Shown one piece after another: positions 14,244 to 33,293 of a stretch of 33,536 nt of DNA; within the stretch, counting starts at the first letter, position 1; the number at the start of each line of letters is the position of its first letter. The notes under the pieces are model-generated. The model worked only from the letters and a program-made list of their open reading frames with translations. It ran no database searches and was not told the DNA's origin. Origin of the DNA: Chitinophagales bacterium (GTDB lineage: Bacteria; Bacteroidota; Bacteroidia; Chitinophagales; UBA2359); the NCBI GenBank assembly GCA_016787295.1, contig JAEUUX010000170.1:1-33536 (forward strand), in the 5' to 3' direction. A program made the translations under genes and the position numbers.

Positions 14244-14303
14244 TAAGAGTAGTTTAGAAATGTACTATGTTTGTTGGGTGTTTGAATGGGCATATTGTGT
14301 AGC

Positions 14304-14471
14304 GCAATAGATAAATCATTTGCCTACAAAAATATGCCATATTTAGCATTGTTTTTATGGATTAATGGAACATATAGCGCTGTAAAACTTGACTATAAGT
14401 AGAGCGTTAGCTGGCGCATAGCGGATTTGAACAAAATTAAATGGGTAGATAATATTGGGGGTTATTTTTTT
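14304..14471 (+). repeat. Diverged copy of the 168-bp module
   Basis: The second half (about 14343-14471) is clearly homologous to the 168-bp units at 15102 onward, including ATGGAACATATAGCGCTG and the variant A tail. The first 40 bp are diverged. It abuts the 126-bp modules at the same boundary used elsewhere. The 60 bp between miaA and this copy show nothing recognisable. Confidence 0.8.
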
Positions 14472-14849
14472 GATGTGTATAATATTGTTGCCTAAATTTG
14501 CTTTGAGGGTTATTATTTCACCCTTTCAGGGTTTCAAAAGGATTTGTTGTTTGTTTTTGCTATAAACTTTTCACCCTTTCAGGGTTTTTCTTTTTTTGAT
14601 GTGTATAATATTGTTGCCTAAATTTGCTTTGATGGTTATCATTTCACCCTTTCAGGGTTTCAAAAGGATTTGTTGTTTGTTTTTGCTATAAACTTTTCAC
14701 CCTTTCAGGGTTTTTCTTTTTTTGATGTGTATAATATTGTTGCCTAAATTTGCATTGAGGGTTATCATTTCACCCTTTCAGGGTTTTAAAAGGATTTGTT
14801 GTTTGTTTTTGCTATAAACTTTTCACCCTTTCAGGGTTTTTCTTTTTTT
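14472..14849 (+). repeat. Three 126-bp repeat modules
   Basis: Copies begin at 14472, 14598 and 14724, each exactly 126 bp, and start GATGTGTATAATATTG. Each carries two CACCCTTTCAGGGTTT elements 53 bp apart, whose ACCCT-TTC-AGGGT arms can form a small hairpin. Copies differ by a few substitutions. There is no convincing coding frame. Confidence 0.95.
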
Positions 14850-15101
14850 GATGTGGGTAAAAATTGTTTATGCCAACAGAGTTTTATTATTTTGTGTCTA
14901 TTTTTCTTGTTGAAATAGTAATAACCCCAACGGGGTGACAAGTTTATAGCATAGATATCGCCAAACATTTTACATAAACCCTGAAAGGGTGATATAAATG
15001 AAGGATAATGATTATCATTTCACCATTTTGGAGTTTTAAAAGAGTCTATTCTTTGTTTTTTGCTATAAACTTATCACCTTTTTAGGGTTTGGATTTTTTT
15101 G
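14850..15101 (+). repeat. 252-bp repeat module, copy 1
   Basis: It starts GATGTGGGTAAAAATTG and contains ACCCCAACGGGGTGACAAG, AAACCCTGAAAGGGTGAT, and the palindrome AATGATTATCATT at 15007-15019. It ends with a weak CACC...AGGGTTT element in the opposite orientation. Sister copies lie at 16321 and 19631. Confidence 0.95.
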
Positions 15102-15941
15102 GTGCGAAATAATTATGGTATTTGTAAGAACATTGTGTGTTTAGTGTTGTTTTTATGGATTAATGGAACATAGAGCGCTGCAAAACTTGACTACAAATAG
15201 AGAGTTAGCTGGAGCATAGCGGATTTGAGCAAAATTAAATGCGTAGATAATATTGAGGGTTATTTTTTTGTGCGAAATAATTATGGTATTTGCAAGAACA
15301 TTATGTGTTTAGTGTTGTTTTTGTGGATTGATGGAACATAGAGCGCTGTAAAACTTGACTACAAATAGAGAGTTAGCTGGCGCATAGCGGATTTGAGCAA
15401 AATTAAATGCGTAGATAATATTGGGGGTTATTTTTTTGTGAGAAATAATTATGGTATTTGTAAGAACATTGTGTGTTTAGTGTTGTTTTTGTGGATTAAT
15501 GGAACATAGAGCGCTGCAAAACTTGACTATAAGTAGAGGGTTAGCTGGAGCATAGCGGATTTGAACAAAATTAAATGGGTAGATAATATTGGGGGTTATT
15601 TTTTTGTGCGAAATAATTATGGCATTTGTAAGAACATTGTGTGTTTAGTGTTGTTTTTATGAATTAATGGAACATAGAGCGCTGTAAAACTTGACTACAA
15701 ATAGAGGGTTAGCTGATGTGCAGCGGGTTAGAATGTGATAAGCTGTGCGGATAATATTGGGGGTTATTTTTTTGTGCGAAATAATTATGGTATTTGTAAG
15801 AACATTGTGTGTTTAGTGTTGTTTTTGCGGATTGATGTAATATATAGCGCTGTAAAACTTGACTACAAATAGAAAGTTAGCTGGCGCATAGCGGATTTGA
15901 GCAAAATTAAATGGGTAGATAATATTGGGGGTTATTTTTTT
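15102..15941 (+). repeat. Five 168-bp tandem repeat modules
   Basis: Copies start at 15102, 15270, 15438, 15606 and 15774 with an exact 168-bp period, beginning GTGCGAAATAATTATGG or close. A 50-bp segment near the end exists in two forms: A (TTAGCTGGCGCATAGCGG) and B (TTAGCTGATGTGCAGCGGG). The order here is A, A, A, B, A. No reading frame is conserved. Confidence 0.95.
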
Positions 15942-16320
15942 GATGTGGGTAATATTGTCGTGATAATCTGCTTTGATGGTTATCATTTCACCCTTTCAGG
16001 GTTTTAAAAGGATTTGTTGTTTTCTTTTTTATAAACTTTCCGCCCTTTCAGAGGGTTTGGATTTTTTTGATGTGTGTAATATTGTTGCCTAAATTTGCTT
16101 TGATGGTTATCATTTCACCCTTTCAGGGTTTCAAAAGGATTTGTTGTTTGTTTTTGCTATAAACTTTTCACCCTTTCAGGGTTTGGATTTTTTTGATGTG
16201 TATAATATTGTTACCTAAATTTGCTTTTAGGGTTATTATTTTACCATTTCGGGGTTTTAAAAGGATTTGTTGTTTGTTTTTGCTATAAACTTTTCACCCT
16301 TTCAGGGTTTTTCTTTTTTT
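15942..16320 (+). repeat. Three 126-bp repeat modules, second set
   Basis: Copies start at 15942 (127 bp; its second element has two extra bases, TTTCAGAGGG), 16069 and 16195 (126 bp each). The third is more diverged in its first hairpin element (TTACCATTTCGGGGTTT). Confidence 0.93.
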
Positions 16321-16571
16321 GATGTGGGTAAAAATTGTTTATGCCAACAAAGTTTTATTATTTTGTGTTTATTTTTTTTGTTTAAATAGTGATAACCCCA
16401 ACGGGGTGACAAGTTTATAGCATAGGTATTGCCAAACATTTTACATAAACCCTGAAAGGGTGATATAAATGAAGGATAATGATTATCATTTCACCATTTT
16501 GGGGTTTTAAAAGGATTTGTTGTTTGTTTTTGCTATAAATGTGTCACCCTTTCAGGGTTTTCTTTTTTTTG
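16321..16571 (+). repeat. 252-bp repeat module, copy 2
   Basis: A 251-bp copy of the module at 14850, with the same ACCCCAACGGGGTGACAAG and AATGATTATCATT (16478-16490) elements. The last 75 bp are of the 126-bp module type (GGATTTGTTGTTTG) rather than the GAGTCTATTCTTTG type seen in the other two copies. Confidence 0.95.
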
Positions 16572-16712
16572 GTGAGAACAATATTATTATGGAAATTTGG
16601 ATTAACAAATGTAATTTCACCCATTTGAGGGTTTTATTTGGTTTGTGCTTTTTTATTTTCTATTATTTTATTGCTTTTTTAGGGTTTGGATTTTTTTGTT
16701 TTCTATAAATGA
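16572..16712 (+). repeat. Degenerate end of the first repeat block
   Basis: AT-rich sequence with eroded fragments of the modules (GTGAGAACAATATTATTATGG, then CACCCATTTGAGGGTTTT and TTTTAGGGTTTGG). An open frame here has only Phe-rich, low-complexity content and is not a gene. Confidence 0.6.
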
Positions 16713-16745
16713 AACGTTGGCAGCGTTTTGAACGCTGGCAAGGTT
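16713..16745. repeat. REP-like palindrome
   Basis: The palindromic core CAGCGTTTTGAACGCTG can fold as a 7-bp stem. It is flanked by AACGTTGG and GCAAGGTT, which extend the imperfect symmetry. This looks like a dispersed REP-type element at the end of the repeat block. Confidence 0.6.
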
Positions 16746-16763
16746 CATATATTGAAGGAAATA

Positions 16764-16874
16764 TTGGGCGAGTGGCGAAGCGCGTTAGGGATTGTAGGGG
16801 CTGCCGTTAGGCAGGTGCTTGCACCGAAGCGTTAGCGAAGCCCCGTAAAGCCCGACCCGCAGGGGAACGCCCAA
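16764..16874. repeat. GC-rich structured intergenic element
   Basis: About 110 bp bounded by the inverted repeat TTGGGCG (16764-16770) and CGCCCAA (16868-16874), with internal GGCGAAGCGCGTTAGGG, CTGCCGTTAGGCAG and AGCCCGACCCGCAGGGG. Its GC content is far above its surroundings. I recognise this style (GGGCG...agcgcg...GGGAT...AGCCCGACCCGCAGGG...CGCCC) as a recurrent intergenic element in Bacteroidota genomes, probably a folded RNA or terminator-like unit; its function is not known to me. From 16875 to 17096, upstream of rluD, I see nothing further. Confidence 0.6.
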
Positions 16875-17096
16875 ATAAAATATTTTTATATTGCCTTATT
16901 TTTCTCTGTTATCGGGCTAAATGGGCAAAAATTAGGTATAATCACTGTATTTAGTGGGTGTTTTTTGGTAAAAAAGCCCAATTTTGTGTTGATAGGGTGT
17001 ATGTGTTCTGTCATTGAGGGGAGGGCTTTTGCTGTTTTTGGTGTATGCTCGCAGGGGTATGCGCTGTCATTTGTGTATTTTTTTTAATTGTTAGAC

Positions 17097-18276: not shown

Positions 18277-18371
18277 TTATTATTTAAATAGTGGGTAAAA
18301 AAATGGTGGATAATATTGGGGTGAGTTGGAATGTGGTGGAATGGGTGGATAATATTGGAGTTTATTCTTTT

Positions 18372-18497
18372 GATGTGTATAATATTGTTGCCTAAATTTG
18401 TTTTTAGGGCTATCATTTCACCCTTTCAGGGTTTTAAAAGGGGCTGTTGTTTGTTTTTTCTATAAACTTTTCACCTTTTTAGGGTTTGATTTTTTTT
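18372..18497 (+). repeat. 126-bp repeat module
   Basis: One 126-bp module opens the second repeat block, with the same start (GATGTGTATAATATTG) and two CACC...AGGG elements, the second eroded (CACCTTTTTAGGG). Confidence 0.93.
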
Positions 18498-19504
18498 GTG
18501 CGAAATAATTATGGCATTTGTAAGAATATTGTGTGTTTAGTGTTGTTTTTGTAGATTAATGGAACATAGAGTGCTGCAAAACTTGACTATAAGTAGAGGG
18601 TTAGCTGATGTGTAGCGGGTTGGAATGTGATAAAGTGTGCGGATAATATTGGGGTTTATTTTTTTGTACGAAATAATTATGGCATTTATAAGAACATTAT
18701 GTGTTTAGTGTTGTTTTTGTGGATTAATAGAACATAGAGAGCTGCAAAACTTGACTACAAATAAAGGGTTAGCTGGCGTATAGCGGATTTGAGCAAAATT
18801 AAATGCGTAGACAATATTGGGGGTTATTTTTTGATGGAAATAATTATGACGTTTATAAGAACATTATGTGTTTGGTGTTGTTTTTGTGGATTAATGGAAC
18901 ATAGAGCGCTGTAAAACTTGACTACAAATAGAGGGTTAGCTGATGTGTAGCGGGTTGGAATGTGATAAAGTGTGCAGGTAATATTTGAGGTTATTTTTTT
19001 GATGGAAATAATTATGGTATTTGTAAGAACATTGTGTGTTTAGTGTTGTTTTTATGGATTAATGGAACATAGAGCGCTGCAAAACTTGACTACAAATAGA
19101 GGGTTAGCTGGCGCATGGCGGATTTGAACAAAATTAAATAGGTAGATAATATTGGGGGTTATTTTTTTGTGCGAAATAATTATAGCATTTGTAAGAACAT
19201 TGTGTGTTTAGTGTTGTTTTTATGGATTAATGGAACATATAGCGCTGCAAAACTTGACTATAAGCAGAGGGTTAGCTGATGTGTATCTGGTTGGAATGTA
19301 ATAAAGTGTGCGGATAATATTGGGGGTTATTTTTTTGTGCGAAATAATTATGGCATTTATAAGAACATTGTGTGTTTAGTGTTGTTTTTGTGGATTAATG
19401 GAACATAGAGCGCTGTAAAACTTGACTATAAGTAGAGGGTTAGCTGGCGCATAGCGGATTTGAGCAAAATTAAATGCGTAGATAATATTGGGGGTTATTT
19501 TTTT
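18498..19504 (+). repeat. Six 168-bp tandem repeat modules with alternating variants
   Basis: Copies start at 18498, 18666, 18833, 19001, 19169 and 19337; all are 168 bp except the second (167). The 50-bp variable segment reads B, A, B, A, B, A, so the effective unit is 336 bp. The third and fourth copies begin GATGGAAATAATTATG rather than GTGCGAAATAATTATG. No conserved reading frame exists. Confidence 0.95.
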
Positions 19505-19630
19505 GATGTGTATAATATTGTTGCCTAAATTTGCTTTTAGGGCTATCATTTCACCCTTTCAGGGTTTCAAAAGGGGCTGTTGTTTGTCTTTTCTATAAAC
19601 TTTTCACCCTTTCAGGGTTTTTCTTTTTTT
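19505..19630 (+). repeat. 126-bp repeat module
   Basis: An exact-length 126-bp module sits between the 168-bp array and the third 252-bp module, with two CACCCTTTCAGGGTTT elements. Confidence 0.93.
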
Positions 19631-19881
19631 GATGTGGGTAAAAATTGTTTATGCCGACAAAGTTTTATTATTTTGTGTTTATTTTTTTTGTTGAAATAGT
19701 GATAACCCCAACGGGGTGACAAGTTTGTAGCATAGGTATTGCCAAACATTTTACATAAACCCTGAAAGGGTGATATAAATGAAGGATAATGATTATCATT
19801 TCACCATTTTGGAGTTTTAAAAGAGTCTATTCTTTGTTTTTTGCTATAAACTTATCACCTTTTTAGGGTTTTTCTTTTTTT
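19631..19881 (+). repeat. 252-bp repeat module, copy 3
   Basis: A 251-bp copy. Its first half matches copy 2 at 16321 (GTGTTTATTTTTTTTG, AGGTATTGCC). Its last part matches copy 1 at 14850 (GAGTCTATTCTTTG, ATCACCTTTTTAGGG), so it is a mosaic. The AATGATTATCATT palindrome is at 19788-19800. Confidence 0.95.
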
Positions 19882-20040
19882 GATGTGTATAATATTGTTG
19901 CTAAAAATGGTTTATTTTTTCTTTTTTTCTATAATCATTTGACTCTTTCATGGTTTTCTTTTTTTGCGCTAAATAAAAAAATGTTTATACCGATAAAATT
20001 TTCTTATTTTATGCTTACCTTGTCACCGTTTTAAGGGGTA
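19882..20040 (+). repeat. Degenerate end of the second repeat block
   Basis: It begins as a module (GATGTGTATAATATTGTTGC) and then decays into AT-rich sequence with eroded ACTCTTTCATGG and CACCGTTTTAAGGGG elements. From 20041 to the next gene start I see no clear TAnnTTTG box. Confidence 0.6.
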
Positions 20041-20153
20041 TCTTTTTTTTGTGTCATAAAAAAAATATTTTTCATTGGTCACACAACAATTGCGCGGCTA
20101 TTTTGTTTGTAATAATCATAGACAACTTAAAAATAACTAAATTATTCCAAGAT

Positions 20154-23436: not shown

Positions 23437-23474
23437 AAACCCCCTTGTTCAAGACTGAACAAGGGGGTTTTGAG
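23437..23474. terminator. Bidirectional rho-independent terminator
   Basis: AAACCCCCTTGTTC (23437-23450) and GAACAAGGGGGTTT (23457-23470) form a perfect 14-bp stem with a 6-nt loop. T follows on the plus strand, and GTTGTTTTTAAAA follows on the minus strand. It separates the plus-strand BNR gene from the convergent minus-strand cmr operon and could serve both. Confidence 0.9.
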
Positions 23475-23486
23475 TTTGTATACCTC

Positions 23487-23655
23487 CAGCGCGAGTCTGA
23501 AGTTAAGGGTTTCGAGACGTTGTACCCACAGCGCGAGTCTGAAGTTGGGGGTTTCGAGACCGCGCACCCCCAGCGCGAGTCTGAAGTTAGGGGTTTCGAG
23601 ACGTTATACCTCCAGCGCGAAACTGAAGTTGCTTCTATTGTTGTAGATATATGGC
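23487..23655. repeat. 42-bp tandem repeat array (three full copies plus partial)
   Basis: The shared segment CAGCGCGAGTCTGAAGTT begins at 23487, 23529 and 23571, and as CAGCGCGAAACTGAAGTT at 23613, an exact 42-bp period. A second conserved part, GGGTTTCGAGAC, lies in each unit. The plus strand has an open frame (23445-23696) giving a 14-residue repeat RESEVxGFETLYPQ, but it overlaps the terminator and has no recognisable family, so I do not call a gene. From 23656 to 23751, downstream of cmr6, nothing else is visible. Confidence 0.9.
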
Positions 23656-25848: not shown

Positions 25849-27036
25849 TTAAGGTTTGTTTGATGGTTGAGAAACAATAATGTATTGGTTATACCCAATT
25901 TGGCGAAAATCTTCGTGTTTGTCTATGAGTTGGGTTAGGTCGTTTTGTTTTTCTTTGCGGAAATACAAAACACTACCGCGTTTGAGCAGTTGATATTTGC
26001 GGCTTTTGGAGAGGGTGGCGTTTTTATCCGAAAGATTAAAATAGTGTTGCGTTTTATCTATATCGGTTTGCAAAAAACGGAAGGTCTCTACTTCCGTAAT
26101 GCCAAACAAACAATGGTCGAGCAGATTTTGCTCAACATACGTATCGGCAATTAGCACCATTTGTTGCACTTGGGAGTTGTTGCAGTTTTGGGATTTGATG
26201 TGCGAAATCGGATAGCCATAATTATCAGGAATAGCCTCAACAGCTTTAGCTTCGAGCATGAATGCTGAACGTTCGCCACCAATATGGACAATGCCGTTGG
26301 TGAGTTGTTGTGGTGTTTTGAAACAAACATAGAATGCAAAACAGTAACTTTTCTGCACATCATCTTTTTTGTTCAGACAAAAAGAAGTTTGTTTATAATA
26401 GCCTTTTTCGTCGTCGTCTTCGTATTCGTTTTCTTTGCTTCGGGTGTGTGGTTTGTGCGAATTATTGCGCTTAATGCCTATTTTTTCCACTGCCGTAAAC
26501 ATATCTTCATACGTTTTGCGTTCGCCACCACAACCGACAATATAGTGTGTTAGCTTTTCTTTTGCGGTGTACTCTTTGTGGCTTATTAAGCGAATGGTAT
26601 TATCTGCTTCGACTTGCAGTTGCCAATCTGTGATAGTGCTTGGTTGATAGCTTCGGTTAAAAGGTGCTATCCAGTAGTCTTTGTTGGTGTCGGGGTCGTG
26701 CAGAAAAACGGGAGAAAGGCAGTCAATATTGCCAAAATCGTTTTTACTGTATGTGTCATTAACACCAAAACTTTTGCTGCCTATGAGTTCTTTGGCTTTG
26801 GCTTTGTCGATATCTGTTATTGCTTGGTTGATGTTGAGCAGCAAACCTGCTTCGTGCAACAATTGGTAACGGATAAGCCCAAGTAAGGTTGTTTGTTGGG
26901 GATAATAGTTGGATTTAACCAAATAGTTTTCGTTATCATTGCCAAAAGTGTTTTCGCCGCCAAAGAAAAAAGGTGATAGCGGTCGTAGCACTATTAGGTA
27001 CTTTTGATGAGGCGTTTGTGAGGAATTGTTGGTCAT
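25849..27036 (-). CDS. cmr3: Type III-B effector subunit Cmr3
   Basis: A 395-residue Cas5-like RAMP protein that binds the 5' handle of the crRNA and contacts Cas10. The N-terminal LRPLSPFFFGGENTFG and QTTLLGLIRYQLL are typical of Cmr3. Later FGITEVETFRFLQTD (C-terminal half) and a final Gly-poor RAMP fold follow. The start ATG 27036 overlaps the cas10 stop as ATGA, implying translational coupling. There is an Arg/Glu/Asp-rich loop in the middle (about residues 195-215). Confidence 0.9.
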   Translation of the reverse strand: MTNNSSQTPHQKYLIVLRPLSPFFFGGENTFGNDNENYLVKSNYYPQQTTLLGLIRYQLLHEAGLLLNINQAITDIDKAKAKELIGSKSFGVNDTYSKNDFGNIDCLSPVFLHDPDTNKDYWIAPFNRSYQPSTITDWQLQVEADNTIRLISHKEYTAKEKLTHYIVGCGGERKTYEDMFTAVEKIGIKRNNSHKPHTRSKENEYEDDDEKGYYKQTSFCLNKKDDVQKSYCFAFYVCFKTPQQLTNGIVHIGGERSAFMLEAKAVEAIPDNYGYPISHIKSQNCNNSQVQQMVLIADTYVEQNLLDHCLFGITEVETFRFLQTDIDKTQHYFNLSDKNATLSKSRKYQLLKRGSVLYFRKEKQNDLTQLIDKHEDFRQIGYNQYIIVSQPSNKP

Positions 27037-28637
27037 ATTGTAGGTGGGGTGTTATTGTTTGGGGAACTTAGGAACTGAATAGTGCGCAATAGGGCATAGT
27101 AGGTTTTCATTGCCGTGTCTTCTTCTTTATCAAACGTTTTGTAGCATATCCACAACAAATCTGATACATACTCAATATATTTTTCTGTGTCGCCTTGGTG
27201 TATGGTTTCGTTGAAAAAGTTGGTAAAAAAGTGGATGAATGGGTTGCTGTCTGTTTCTCGCTGTTGCCAGATATGGTGAAGCAGGCTTTGGTTGTCGCGC
27301 AATTTGTAGATTAGCGACTGTAGACTTGCTTCTGAAAGGTGGATTTTGCCTATTTTTTCGATAAAATGGGTATATAATTGTCCTTCTTCACCTGTTTTTT
27401 TATGCAAAGTTGCTTCCCACCATTGTCCGCTGTGTTTTTGGATGCGGAAGGCGATGGCGTTTTTTGGGGAGGATTTCGCTTTTTCGAACAATAAGTTACG
27501 TGACATCTCCAAAGCCTCGAACATAGGGAATTTGTGATATGTAATAGATAAACCTAATGAAAGGCTCACCCCGTCACCAAACCCGCTATTAGCAAACTTT
27601 TTCTGAATACTGTCCATGAGTTCAAAAATACTGCTACCTTCGGCACAAACAGGTGCCAAAAACAATAAATCATCGCCACCAATATACAAAGGTTTTCCGC
27701 CATAGTTGCTAATCTCTTTCGCAGCCCATATAGCAAAATCGTACAATTTTTTAGAAAAACCAGTAAAATCATTTTCGTTAATGGCTTTTATCGTTTCGCC
27801 TATATTATCCCCATCGGCATGAACAATGCAAATATAACGATGGTAAGGCATCAGGTCTTTATTGTTTTTCAGTTTCGTATAAATCCCTTCTTCTTCGCCG
27901 CCATTATTCTGTGCAAATAATTCTGAATGGTTTTCGTATAGCCCAATAGTTGCTATATCAACAATGGAAGGAAAGCCATCGATATGTTTATATTTGCCTT
28001 TATTTTCAACTTGTTTAAAAGTTTCTTTAAATAGTTTGGAGCTATTAATGTTTTCGAAAAAAAGCTCTAAATAATTCGCTTTACTTCGTTTTGTATTAGC
28101 GTTAGTGCTTTCTTGCTCTTCTTCTTTAGGCACAACTTTGCATTGTAGTTCGAGGGTATCCAAATAAGGCGTAAGCGCAATAATGGCATTTTCGTTTGCT
28201 TTGAGCGTCTTTTCTACTATGCAGAATCTGAAATACTGTTTTATATACGCAGTTATGCTTTTTTCTTTTACTTCAATATTGTTTTTTTGAAAACAAGAAA
28301 TCATTATGCAGCTAACTTCGTTGAGGGTTTTCTCTATTGCCCTGTTAAGTTTTGCTGCCTCGTCTCCCTTGTTTTTACGAAAAATAAGGCGGTCAGGAAA
28401 AACACCTGCTCCATAATGATTCAGCGGTTCGTTACTATTCTCATTAGAATAATAAGGTATCAAAATTTGTTCGGAGGTGATACCTTCTTCTTGCAAGTTT
28501 TTAATGATATTGCCCATTATGTAGGAAAATAAGTAGCTGGCTCCCCACAGTTCGCGCGTAGCTCGTGCAAGAAGTAAGGTCTGATAAATCGGACCAATAG
28601 TAAGGGCGATATAAGAAGGCTGGGTAGATGAGCTCAT
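27033..28637 (-). CDS. cas10: Cas10 (Cmr2), cyclase-type, without HD domain
   Basis: A 534-residue signature subunit of type III-B systems. ATG 28637 (MSSSTQPSY) overlaps the hepT stop as ATGA; longer in-frame sequence upstream is antisense-like hepT DNA. The protein begins directly with the first palm-like domain (IGPIYQTLLLARATRELWGA). The second palm has HADGDNIGE (about residues 273-281) and YIGGDDLLFLAP with the GGDD catalytic pair at 320-323. No HD nuclease domain precedes the palm, and 534 residues is well short of HD-containing Cmr2 proteins. So it should synthesise a nucleotide messenger on target RNA binding but not cut DNA. In B. fragilis an HD-less Cas10 next to CorA makes SAM-AMP; the same product here is inference. 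Confidence 0.93.
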   Translation of the reverse strand: MSSSTQPSYIALTIGPIYQTLLLARATRELWGASYLFSYIMGNIIKNLQEEGITSEQILIPYYSNENSNEPLNHYGAGVFPDRLIFRKNKGDEAAKLNRAIEKTLNEVSCIMISCFQKNNIEVKEKSITAYIKQYFRFCIVEKTLKANENAIIALTPYLDTLELQCKVVPKEEEQESTNANTKRSKANYLELFFENINSSKLFKETFKQVENKGKYKHIDGFPSIVDIATIGLYENHSELFAQNNGGEEEGIYTKLKNNKDLMPYHRYICIVHADGDNIGETIKAINENDFTGFSKKLYDFAIWAAKEISNYGGKPLYIGGDDLLFLAPVCAEGSSIFELMDSIQKKFANSGFGDGVSLSLGLSITYHKFPMFEALEMSRNLLFEKAKSSPKNAIAFRIQKHSGQWWEATLHKKTGEEGQLYTHFIEKIGKIHLSEASLQSLIYKLRDNQSLLHHIWQQRETDSNPFIHFFTNFFNETIHQGDTEKYIEYVSDLLWICYKTFDKEEDTAMKTYYALLRTIQFLSSPNNNTPPTI

Positions 28638-28975
28638 ATATGGGTTAAAAGTTTTTTTAGTTTGAGTAAAAGCTGTGGCAAATGGTTTTTGATAATGTTC
28701 CATTCTATTTGTCTCTCTACACGAAAATACTCGTGTATCAGCACATTGCGAAAAGCCACCATTTTTTGCCATTCTATGTGGGTATGTTGGAGCATAAATG
28801 CTTCGGGCAGTTGACGGGTTGCCTCTCCCACTATTTCGAAACATCGGTCGACGGCATAACTTGTCTTATTGTCCGCCTCAAACATAGTATAATCCATGTC
28901 GGAAGTGAACACTAAAATAAGTTCCATATTGTGAACAATATCTTGTACGATGAGTTTTTCATCTCTTTTAGACAT
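28634..28975 (-). CDS. hepT: HEPN-domain RNase toxin, HepT/DUF86 family
   Basis: A 113-residue all-helical protein of the HepT (DUF86) family. The active-site motif RNVLIHEY (about residues 75-82) fits R-X4-H-X-Y exactly: Arg and His for RNA cleavage, and the Tyr that MntA-type partners modify with AMP. Conserved YAVDRCFEIVGEATRQLP is also present. The start overlaps the mntA stop by 8 bp, and its own stop overlaps the cas10 start as ATGA. So it is inside the cmr operon and coupled to both neighbours. In known pairs HepT is an RNase toxin silenced by MntA. Whether this pair is an addiction module or a working part of the CRISPR response is not shown by sequence. Confidence 0.9.
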   Translation of the reverse strand: MSKRDEKLIVQDIVHNMELILVFTSDMDYTMFEADNKTSYAVDRCFEIVGEATRQLPEAFMLQHTHIEWQKMVAFRNVLIHEYFRVERQIEWNIIKNHLPQLLLKLKKLLTHI

Positions 28976-29270
28976 ATTGCAAATCGTTTTTGATGTATTG
29001 CCAATAAGGGGCGGGTATAGCGCCTTCGGTTACTAAATCTATTTTTTTGTTCCCAAATAGTGTTTGTAGTTCAAAATAAAGATCTAGATATTCATAACCG
29101 ACTTGTTGATGTGTAAAGTTGACCAATAAATCAATATCACTGGTTTCGGTAGCCTCGTTTCGGCTATACGAACCAAATAAAGCTAAAGAGTGAATAGGAT
29201 ATTTAGCTTTAAGGGCGGGTAGTTCCTGTCGCAAAAGTGCTATAATGCTGTTGTTATTAATTGGTGTCAT
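28968..29270 (-). CDS. mntA: MntA-type minimal nucleotidyltransferase antitoxin
   Basis: A 100-residue DNA-polymerase-beta-like nucleotidyltransferase. FGSYSRNEATETSDIDLLV fits the MntA motif G-S-X10-D-X-D exactly, and KKIDLV supplies the third Asp. The chosen ATG 29270 (MTPINNNSI) gives the usual MntA length; a longer frame to 29339 reaches into the end of cmr1 without family support. Known MntA enzymes transfer AMP to the conserved Tyr of HepT and so block its RNase activity. It starts 53 bp after the cmr1 stop, the only sizeable gap in the operon, and overlaps hepT by 8 bp. Confidence 0.9.
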   Translation of the reverse strand: MTPINNNSIIALLRQELPALKAKYPIHSLALFGSYSRNEATETSDIDLLVNFTHQQVGYEYLDLYFELQTLFGNKKIDLVTEGAIPAPYWQYIKNDLQYV

Positions 29271-29323
29271 AAAACTTATTATTAAGATGAAACAAAATCT
29301 TAGTTCACCGAAGCAACGTACTT

Positions 29324-30553
29324 CTACACCTGCTTCCAATCTTTTCCTAAGTAATTTTTCAAAAAATCACCTAAATTTAAAATCATTTCAAGCGGTGGTG
29401 TTTTGATGTGCAAAGGAACACGGTCGTCAGCGCTAAATTCAAAAGTACGTTCGTACAAATCATCGGGTATTTCACCACAAAGGATATAGATGTGCTTATT
29501 AACGACTTTGAAAGTTAGCGGCGATTTAAAGCGCTCTATTTCGCCCGCCAAATCGTTAATTTTTACTTTATCTATAGGAATGCTTGCTTGCATATAGACA
29601 TATTCCTCTGCCAAACCCAATAGTATGCGAATGTAGCGCTCGTTGGGCCAAGCGACTATTTGTTTTGCTCCATCGGCTTGTTCGCGGTTTTCTTTGCGAT
29701 AATACAAACAGTCTTTAATAGGAACGGCTTCCCAAACAACAGGAAGTCCCTCTATTTTTTTTGTTAGATAATGTTGTTGCAATTTGGAGGGCGTTTGGCG
29801 AATCCCATCGCTGTTTTTCTTGCCTTTGCCGCTTTTCAATACCTGATAGGTGTCTGTTATCATCTTGAAAATTTGGTCTATTCCAATATACGTTTGGATA
29901 GAACAAAAAACAGGACGTGCATTTTGGCGAAAAATCTCTGTAATGCGTTCATCGTTCAAATTGGCAGTGGTGAAACTGCCAAAACCTTTGCTTTGGCGCG
30001 TACCAAAGTTGTGCAACAACAAAAATTCTTCAAAATATTTGTCAATAATATCGAGCAAGTCGGTATTAAGCGAAAAAAAAGTAACCGTAATGCTGCCTTC
30101 ACACAATACTCCTTTGCGGATAGAGTCAAAATCGGCTTCATAAGATTTGATGAACTGATTATCGGCAAAGTAGGGCGCAGGCGAAATGGGTATGTAAGCG
30201 TTTTTGCTAACCAAATCTTTCTGTTTTCCGTTGAGCAAACTTGCAAAAATGTAGTTTTTTGCGTTTCCTTCTTCCGTAATGCGCACTTTGTAGTCCAAGG
30301 CAGGGAACTCGGCTTGGTTTTTACCAATAAAAAAATGGCGTGCCTCTTTTTTTATGTTCTTCTTCCAATCTTTATCGGTCGAAGTAGGATCGTTCTGCCA
30401 AGATTCCTTAGCGATAATGAATTTATCCAACTTTGGTTTTAGTTCGGTGGCGCGCAAAGTAGCTCCATCTTGGTCGGCTTGAAAATGGATAATAGGTGTG
30501 TGTTGTTGTAATTGAAATTCTCGGATGAATCTTGACTGGTTGTTGTTTGTCAT
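29324..30553 (-). CDS. cmr1: Probable type III-B effector subunit Cmr1
   Basis: A 409-residue RAMP-like protein, first gene of the cmr operon. The N-terminus reads FQLQQHTPIIHFQADQDGA then TLRATELKPKLDKF, the form I associate with Bacteroidota Cmr1-type proteins, though it differs from the shorter archaeal Cmr1 signature. A Gly-rich stretch NFGTRQSKGFGSFTTA (near residue 190) is a RAMP hallmark. Position also argues for Cmr1: the operon then has all six subunits in the usual order. Cmr1 sits at the 3' end of the crRNA filament and helps seal the target RNA. A TACCTTTGC promoter box lies 43 bp upstream. If not Cmr1 it is another RAMP filling that place. Confidence 0.78.
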   Translation of the reverse strand: MTNNNQSRFIREFQLQQHTPIIHFQADQDGATLRATELKPKLDKFIIAKESWQNDPTSTDKDWKKNIKKEARHFFIGKNQAEFPALDYKVRITEEGNAKNYIFASLLNGKQKDLVSKNAYIPISPAPYFADNQFIKSYEADFDSIRKGVLCEGSITVTFFSLNTDLLDIIDKYFEEFLLLHNFGTRQSKGFGSFTTANLNDERITEIFRQNARPVFCSIQTYIGIDQIFKMITDTYQVLKSGKGKKNSDGIRQTPSKLQQHYLTKKIEGLPVVWEAVPIKDCLYYRKENREQADGAKQIVAWPNERYIRILLGLAEEYVYMQASIPIDKVKINDLAGEIERFKSPLTFKVVNKHIYILCGEIPDDLYERTFEFSADDRVPLHIKTPPLEMILNLGDFLKNYLGKDWKQV

Positions 30554-30595: not shown

Positions 30596-30604
30596 GCAAA
30601 GGTA
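30596..30604 (-). promoter_or_regulatory. Bacteroidota -7 promoter box of the cmr operon
   Basis: The minus strand reads TACCTTTGC, an exact TAnnTTTG match, 43 bp before the cmr1 start. It implies that cmr1 to cmr6, including mntA-hepT, is transcribed from its own promoter rather than only from corA. The gap from 30554 to 30677 contains nothing else recognised. Confidence 0.65.
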
Positions 30605-30677: not shown

Positions 30678-31109
30678 CTAATTACTTTTTTTCGAAGTTA
30701 CAATTTCTTCAACTTTTTCTATATATCGCAGCAAGTCGTCAAGCGAAATTTTATGCTCAACACCTATTTTAAACAAGCGCTCAAGGTGTTCAAAATCATC
30801 AGGCTTACTAACTGGTGAAGGTTCTTTTTCTGCTTATTTTCTCCTCAACTCCTTTCTTTCCTCCATTGTTTTGTCGAATTCGTGCCGTTGATTGTTCAAC
30901 AACTGCGTGAAATAACCATATACCAAAATGGCTATGACAAAAACCGTATTGCAAATCGGGAATATGTAGAAAAAAGGTAGCGTACCATACCAATTTTTTT
31001 CATCTAAGCATTTTAAAAAAAAGAAACTAACTGCATTAAGCACAGCGCATACAATAACAGCGCATACAATAACAGCCCAACATAGCGTTGATGTATTTTC
31101 TGTTGACAT
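30678..31109 (-). pseudogene. Small two-helix membrane protein, interrupted by an in-frame TAA
   Basis: ATG 31109 opens a 91-residue product with two membrane helices (about residues 9-32 and 43-67) and a charged tail ending MEERKELRRK, then TAA at 30834-30836. The same frame continues open for 51 codons to a TAG at 30678, encoding protein-like sequence: AEKEPSPVSKPDDFEHLERL, then FKIGVEHKISLDDLLRYIEK. No ATG precedes that second part. The simplest reading is one 143-residue gene with a nonsense mutation; readthrough or a separate small gene with a weak start are alternatives. The start is 5 bp after the corA stop, so it is cotranscribed with corA. Helix 1 carries a 15-bp tandem duplication (31045-31074, repeating AVIVC). 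Function unknown; its place suggests a CorA partner. Confidence 0.7.
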
Positions 31110-32909: not shown

Positions 32910-33293
32910 TTATCGCTCATACAACTGTCTCAAACGTGCCAATACCTCTTTTGATTGATGTCCGTCCCAGATAGGCGAACAAGGCAAAGTAGTAGCAAAA
33001 CCCGCCTCGTCCCAACGGTTCATGGGTAGGTGATAGCTAATCTGCTGTCCTGCGGCGGTATCTATGCCCATAATAAACCAACCTTCCCATACCACGCCAT
33101 CATGATGAGCCATACTTCGCCAAATTTGGTGTTGGTCGGTTTCGTAGGTGTGTAATAAGTAGCACAAAGCCATAAATAACGTAATGCGGTGGTCATACAA
33201 TTCGGCGAAAGTATGATGTCCATCGCTAATCAAGTTAGTGTCGGCTTTACTTTGCTGGATAAGCCAATTTAAGGCTTGCTCTGTATTGGTCAT
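32910..33293 (-). CDS. WDGH-domain protein
   Basis: A 127-residue soluble protein with the features of the WDGH domain family: FAELYDHRITLFMALCYLL, WRSMAHHDGVVWEGWFIMG, ISYHLPMNRWDEAGFA, and near the end PIWDGHQSKEVLARLRQLY, which contains the WDGH motif itself. The family is common in phages and their hosts; its biochemical role is not known to me. ATG 33293 lies about 36 bp after a TATTTTTGC promoter box, and a hairpin with a T run follows the gene. It is transcribed toward corA but is separated from it by that hairpin, so a link to the CRISPR locus is only positional. Confidence 0.82.
   Translation of the reverse strand: MTNTEQALNWLIQQSKADTNLISDGHHTFAELYDHRITLFMALCYLLHTYETDQHQIWRSMAHHDGVVWEGWFIMGIDTAAGQQISYHLPMNRWDEAGFATTLPCSPIWDGHQSKEVLARLRQLYER

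Follow-up and report, generated by a model that had tools for sequence, protein, structure and literature searches.

It is proposed that a small gene between corA and cmr1, in a type III-B (SAM-AMP-type) CRISPR locus of a Chitinophagales bacterium, encodes a membrane-bound partner of the CorA effector and was truncated by a recent nonsense change; we hold this reading with moderate confidence. The window (the whole stretch of 33,536 nucleotides analysed) carries a membrane ORF that is closed by an in-frame TAA and followed by further open codons in the same frame, and uninterrupted ORFs are found at the same position in many other genomes. A nonsense truncation, possibly only a base error, is an ordinary event; the point of interest is the partner family.

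The small membrane ORF and its locus

The locus comprises CorA, cmr1, an MntA/HepT-like pair, cmr2/cas10 and cmr3 to cmr6 (Table 1), of which Cmr2 and Cmr3 were assigned by Pfam/NCBIfam and cmr1 and cmr4 to cmr6 by gene order and sequence. Judged by these genes it is a type III-B CRISPR locus with a CorA effector, and both PADLOC and the tree place its CorA in the CRISPR-linked family. Four queries detected no NrN, DEDD nuclease or SAM-AMP lyase in the genome itself, a draft of 296 contigs in which this contig leaves 0.9 kb on the upstream side of corA; the same NrN query matches 61 of the fetched CorA loci. The MntA/HepT-like toxin-antitoxin pair (28634-29339) lies between cmr1 and cas10 and has similar counterparts at CorA loci L028, L045 and L086. 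A WDGH-domain gene (32910-33293) upstream of corA was not seen at other CorA loci. The window holds 69 boxes of the Bacteroidota type TAnnTTTG, one of which (30597-30604) lies ahead of cmr1. Both contig ends (1-139 and 33394-33536) are occupied by related tandem arrays of a 21-bp unit, ACTATGAAGCAACTTTTCATT or a variant of it, which probably explain why the assembly broke there; between genes, tandem repeats whose periods (42, 126 and 168 bp) are all multiples of 42 lie at 14264-17000, 18300-20060 and 23452-23630.

Table 1. Features of the corA-cmr1 region and their coordinates in the window.
Feature	Coordinates	Strand	Basis
corA, type III CRISPR CorA effector, 521 aa	31115..32680	-	PADLOC CorA, E=5.7e-116
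Small membrane ORF, CorA-linked; 91 codons + TAA; two predicted TM helices	30834..31109	-	ORF reading; AF2 helices 3-37 and 43-95
TM helix 1 (predicted), residues ~9-33 of the small ORF	31011..31085	-	Sequence and AF2 helix 3-37
15-bp exact in-frame tandem duplication inside TM1 (AVIVC AVIVC)	31042..31071	-	Sequence
TM helix 2 (predicted), residues ~43-71; opens a long helix that continues beyond the stop in the model	30897..30983	-	AF2 helix 43-95
In-frame TAA at codon 92, truncating the small membrane ORF	30834..30836	-	Sequence
Open tail, 51 codons + TAG in the frame of the small ORF; no ATG/GTG; coding-like	30678..30833	-	Sequence, codon score
Tail hairpin helix 1 (predicted), residues 104-118 when read through	30756..30800	-	AF2, pLDDT ~75
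Tail hairpin helix 2 (predicted), residues 123-142 when read through	30684..30743	-	AF2; best motif site, motif trained without the window, p=0.07
cmr1, Cmr1-type N-terminus QHTPIIHFQ	29324..30553	-	Sequence and position; no Pfam match above cut-off
cmr2/cas10, GGDD motif	27033..28637	-	Pfam/NCBIfam, sequence

Only 5 bp separate the end of corA (31115) from the ATG of the small ORF (31109). The sequence-only reading had described a two-TM ORF directly past corA, ending in TAA and followed in frame by codons that run to a TAG (30678-30680) without an ATG of their own; the coordinates bear this out, and GTG is absent as well, while TTG occurs just twice in the tail. A frame of 51 codons stays open in 0.9% of base shuffles of the same composition. 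The codon score of the tail is 15.3, compared with 16.3 +/- 5.8 for 51-codon pieces of real window genes, and a score as high is reached by 0.5% of the wrong-frame pieces that served as window controls. Because shuffles rarely stay open and the codon score is gene-like, the tail was very probably coding until recently, in agreement with its earlier description as protein-like. Past the other real stops in the window the frame stays open for 38 codons at most, except at two genes with a successor gene in the same frame. The duplication inside the first TM helix is the sole exact tandem duplication of 12-60 bp in the window outside the repeat arrays; it fits as a second sign of recent change and is compatible with relaxed or fast evolution.

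Relatives between corA and cmr1

Relatives were reached through CorA, in six genomes drawn from the phylum, fifteen from the order, eleven from the order of G528 (taken as Bacteroidales) and 80 named GTDB loci, the comparison covering about 90 CorA loci. corA and cmr1 lie at most 100 nt apart in 51 of the 70 GTDB loci where both could be placed, and 17 of the 18 gaps of 100-1200 nt contain an ORF with one to three TM helices, where 0.2 would be expected from shuffled gaps. The small ORF is clustered on the CorA tree (11 changes, against 26.8 with shuffled labels; 0/500) and is distributed mainly in Bacteroidota; shorter forms of 48-53 aa at the Campylobacterota loci L039 and L076 may be unrelated to the family.

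Uninterrupted relatives at this position, present in many genomes, measure 98-213 aa. Past the last TM helix, the median length in 33 relatives is 91 residues (30 or fewer in three only), fused relatives have 67-136, and the window protein has 20 as translated and 72 when read through, the latter inside the family range. The group is defined here by an ORF of one to three TM helices directly between corA and cmr1, as the window ORF is, and by a cytoplasmic part of at least 67 residues that ends in a helix hairpin, of which the 20 residues of the window ORF as translated fall short. The TM part of the small ORF scores 903 against its relatives and 628 +/- 28 in shuffles (0/300 as good), a likeness that, as far as sequence comparison can tell, exceeds composition. 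For the tail, the corresponding comparisons with the relatives' C-termini were not significant, 902 of 5000 shuffles being as good by HMM (the C-terminus alignment is too diverse to discriminate) and 198 of 1000 by summed alignments, and a motif learned from the relatives without the window found its best site in the last helix of the tail (p=0.07). Homology of the tail to these C-termini is suggestive only (p about 0.07 to 0.2).

No convincing Pfam or PADLOC family was found for the relatives, and none of the loci compared held a gene closely related to that of the window. The first protein search (198 relatives) gave weak, unrelated matches only, no further relatives were found in the order containing locus L012, viral contigs and phages gave no useful homologues, and the plasmids yielded only the CorA of Arcobacter and Haliscomenobacter. 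Assignment of the tail as DUF6964 (E=0.0013) was dropped, as 12 of 14 control genomes also give sub-threshold matches to this profile; composition accounts for the matches to Tetraspanin, PIG-P and similar Pfam families, which were below cut-off too.

AlphaFold models of the read-through window protein (helices 3-37, 43-95, 104-118 and 123-142) and of the uninterrupted L015 protein (helices 2-87, 91-104 and 114-135) present a common predicted plan, in which a two-helix hairpin comes after a long helix anchored in the membrane; the models were built from single sequences, have low pTM (0.30-0.32) and serve for helix order only. In the read-through model the TAA falls just ahead of the hairpin.

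The tail is not attached in all loci. In L074 (L114 is the same protein) the TGA that ends the membrane ORF shares bases with the start (ATGA) of a soluble ORF of 62 aa, whose product is clearly a homologue of the C-terminal part of the fused protein of L015. L123 has a similar split whose soluble part has its own ATG. A separate soluble tail ORF is seen in two Bacteroidales. Such precedents raise the question of whether the window also has a natural two-part arrangement, with a working stump and a tail translated on its own, either through reinitiation at an internal TTG or through coupling. We judge this quite improbable: the window tail offers neither ATG nor GTG, it shares the frame of the stump, and its first in-frame TTG lies well within the first hairpin helix.

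At L012, which the CorA tree puts nearest to the window, the small ORF stops at the equivalent position and has no tail, and cmr1 follows about 25 bp further on. The stump could by analogy be the natural full protein and the open tail a product of chance or an old relic, a reading that appears rather unlikely given that the tail stays open over 51 codons with gene-like codon usage and that about 124 nt without an annotated gene lie between its TAG and cmr1, where L012 has almost none. Since L012 ends at the stop position of the window and the soluble part is an ORF of its own in L074 and L123, the tail is separable and sometimes absent, and its loss seems tolerable. The sequence-only reading had held that uninterrupted homologues beside corA would speak for mutation or readthrough, and homologues ending at the same place, or with a downstream segment that has its own conserved start codon, against both; the loci compared furnish the former in number, and the latter in part, in L012 and in L074 and L123, respectively.

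Origin of the interrupted frame and a proposed role

Of the two origins suggested earlier for the interrupted frame, a recent nonsense mutation is the best-supported reading, the uninterrupted relatives having a median of 91 residues past the last TM helix where the window protein has 20 (72 read through). The other, a readthrough-regulated tail, is not supported: although the tail is open, coding-like and in frame, none of 33 relatives combines an in-frame stop with a comparable open tail behind it, four long extensions among them (384-477 codons) being read as cmr1 in the same frame. Most window genes (15 of 21) also end in TAA, in general the stop codon least prone to leak, and programmed readthrough yielding a minor long form is in our view very improbable. 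A sequencing or assembly base error at the TAA, with an intact gene for a protein of ~143 residues, would require a single substitution in a draft genome and would give a protein whose architecture and 72 residues past the last TM helix match the family exactly; single substitution errors are nevertheless uncommon in assemblies, the other genes of the locus contain no frame breaks, and we consider an error unlikely.

Under the preferred reading, a partner gene truncated by a nonsense change, the full form would be that of the relatives, with one to three TM helices, the last continuing as a long cytoplasmic helix, and a two-helix hairpin at the end. We infer that the mutation is recent and that the partner adjoins CorA, where it would tune channel assembly or gating. 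The TAA at codon 92 would leave the membrane part alone, and the hairpin-coding segment would persist as 51 untranslated, still open codons. Loss of the hairpin would weaken or alter the tuning; it need not destroy the system, because the sister locus L012 is naturally without the tail. The stump may still function, given the natural end of L012 at this point and the separate tail ORF of two Bacteroidales; as the tail is missing from L012, the common ancestor of this sister pair may itself have ended at the stump.

CorA itself hints at such a partnership. Past the QGIE motif, its C-terminus has a median of 127 aa at loci without a separate small ORF and 110.5 aa at loci with one (p=8e-5, in statistics that ignore kinship), and it reaches at least 145 aa in 13 of 61 of the former and 0 of 34 of the latter; long C-termini often carry an extra TM helix and a tail. 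This is as expected if the extension of CorA replaces the partner, and the longer C-terminus resembles a fusion, a hint that the small protein works with CorA. Long C-terminal extensions with an extra TM helix and a soluble tail, and no separate small ORF, were observed at L102, L106/L067, L111, L016, L058 and L081. At the Chitinophagales locus L099 / L019, corA itself has an in-frame TGA, which makes it a second CorA locus with a broken gene.

We tentatively raise the possibility that many CRISPR CorA effectors are two-component systems, in which a dedicated small membrane subunit (encoded between corA and cmr1, or replaced by an extension of CorA) would control the SAM-AMP-gated channel via a detachable cytoplasmic hairpin, the window being a natural hairpin-less mutant.

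Comparison with known systems

The window resembles the Bacteroides fragilis type III-B CorA (SAM-AMP) system (PMC10600005) in that corA adjoins cmr genes with Cas10/Cmr2, and differs from it in that searches of the genome gave no homologue of NrN, DEDD or the lyase. The literature consulted names CorA, NrN and NYN, and mentions no small membrane protein in the corA-cmr1 interval. The sequence-only reading had regarded a partner at this place as foreign to the known CorA systems; none is indeed described in the CorA literature consulted, but such a partner recurs widely in corA-cmr1 gaps. The cause of the toxicity of CRISPR CorA when alone and the control of its gating are open questions (PMC10600005, PMC12255297). 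A small membrane gene that recurs beside corA, is represented in neither Pfam nor PADLOC and goes unmentioned in the literature consulted suggests itself as a candidate for a missing subunit; with its truncated copy, the window offers a natural experiment on the part that is required.

Two membrane proteins of type III systems invite comparison. PADLOC Mem_04 (two TM helices plus a globular domain, in type III operons) shares with the window ORF the two N-terminal TM helices and the type III operon; the match between them is weak (E=0.009, 13.7 bits) and covers the TM part only (positions 9-55 of 212), and neither the read-through form nor the relatives match Mem_04 at E 0.01. Cam3 (PMC11229360) differs in having six TM helices and another partner gene and is likened by role, not by sequence; it offers a functional parallel as a membrane protein that is always found beside the type III effector Cami1 and is proposed to be its accessory.
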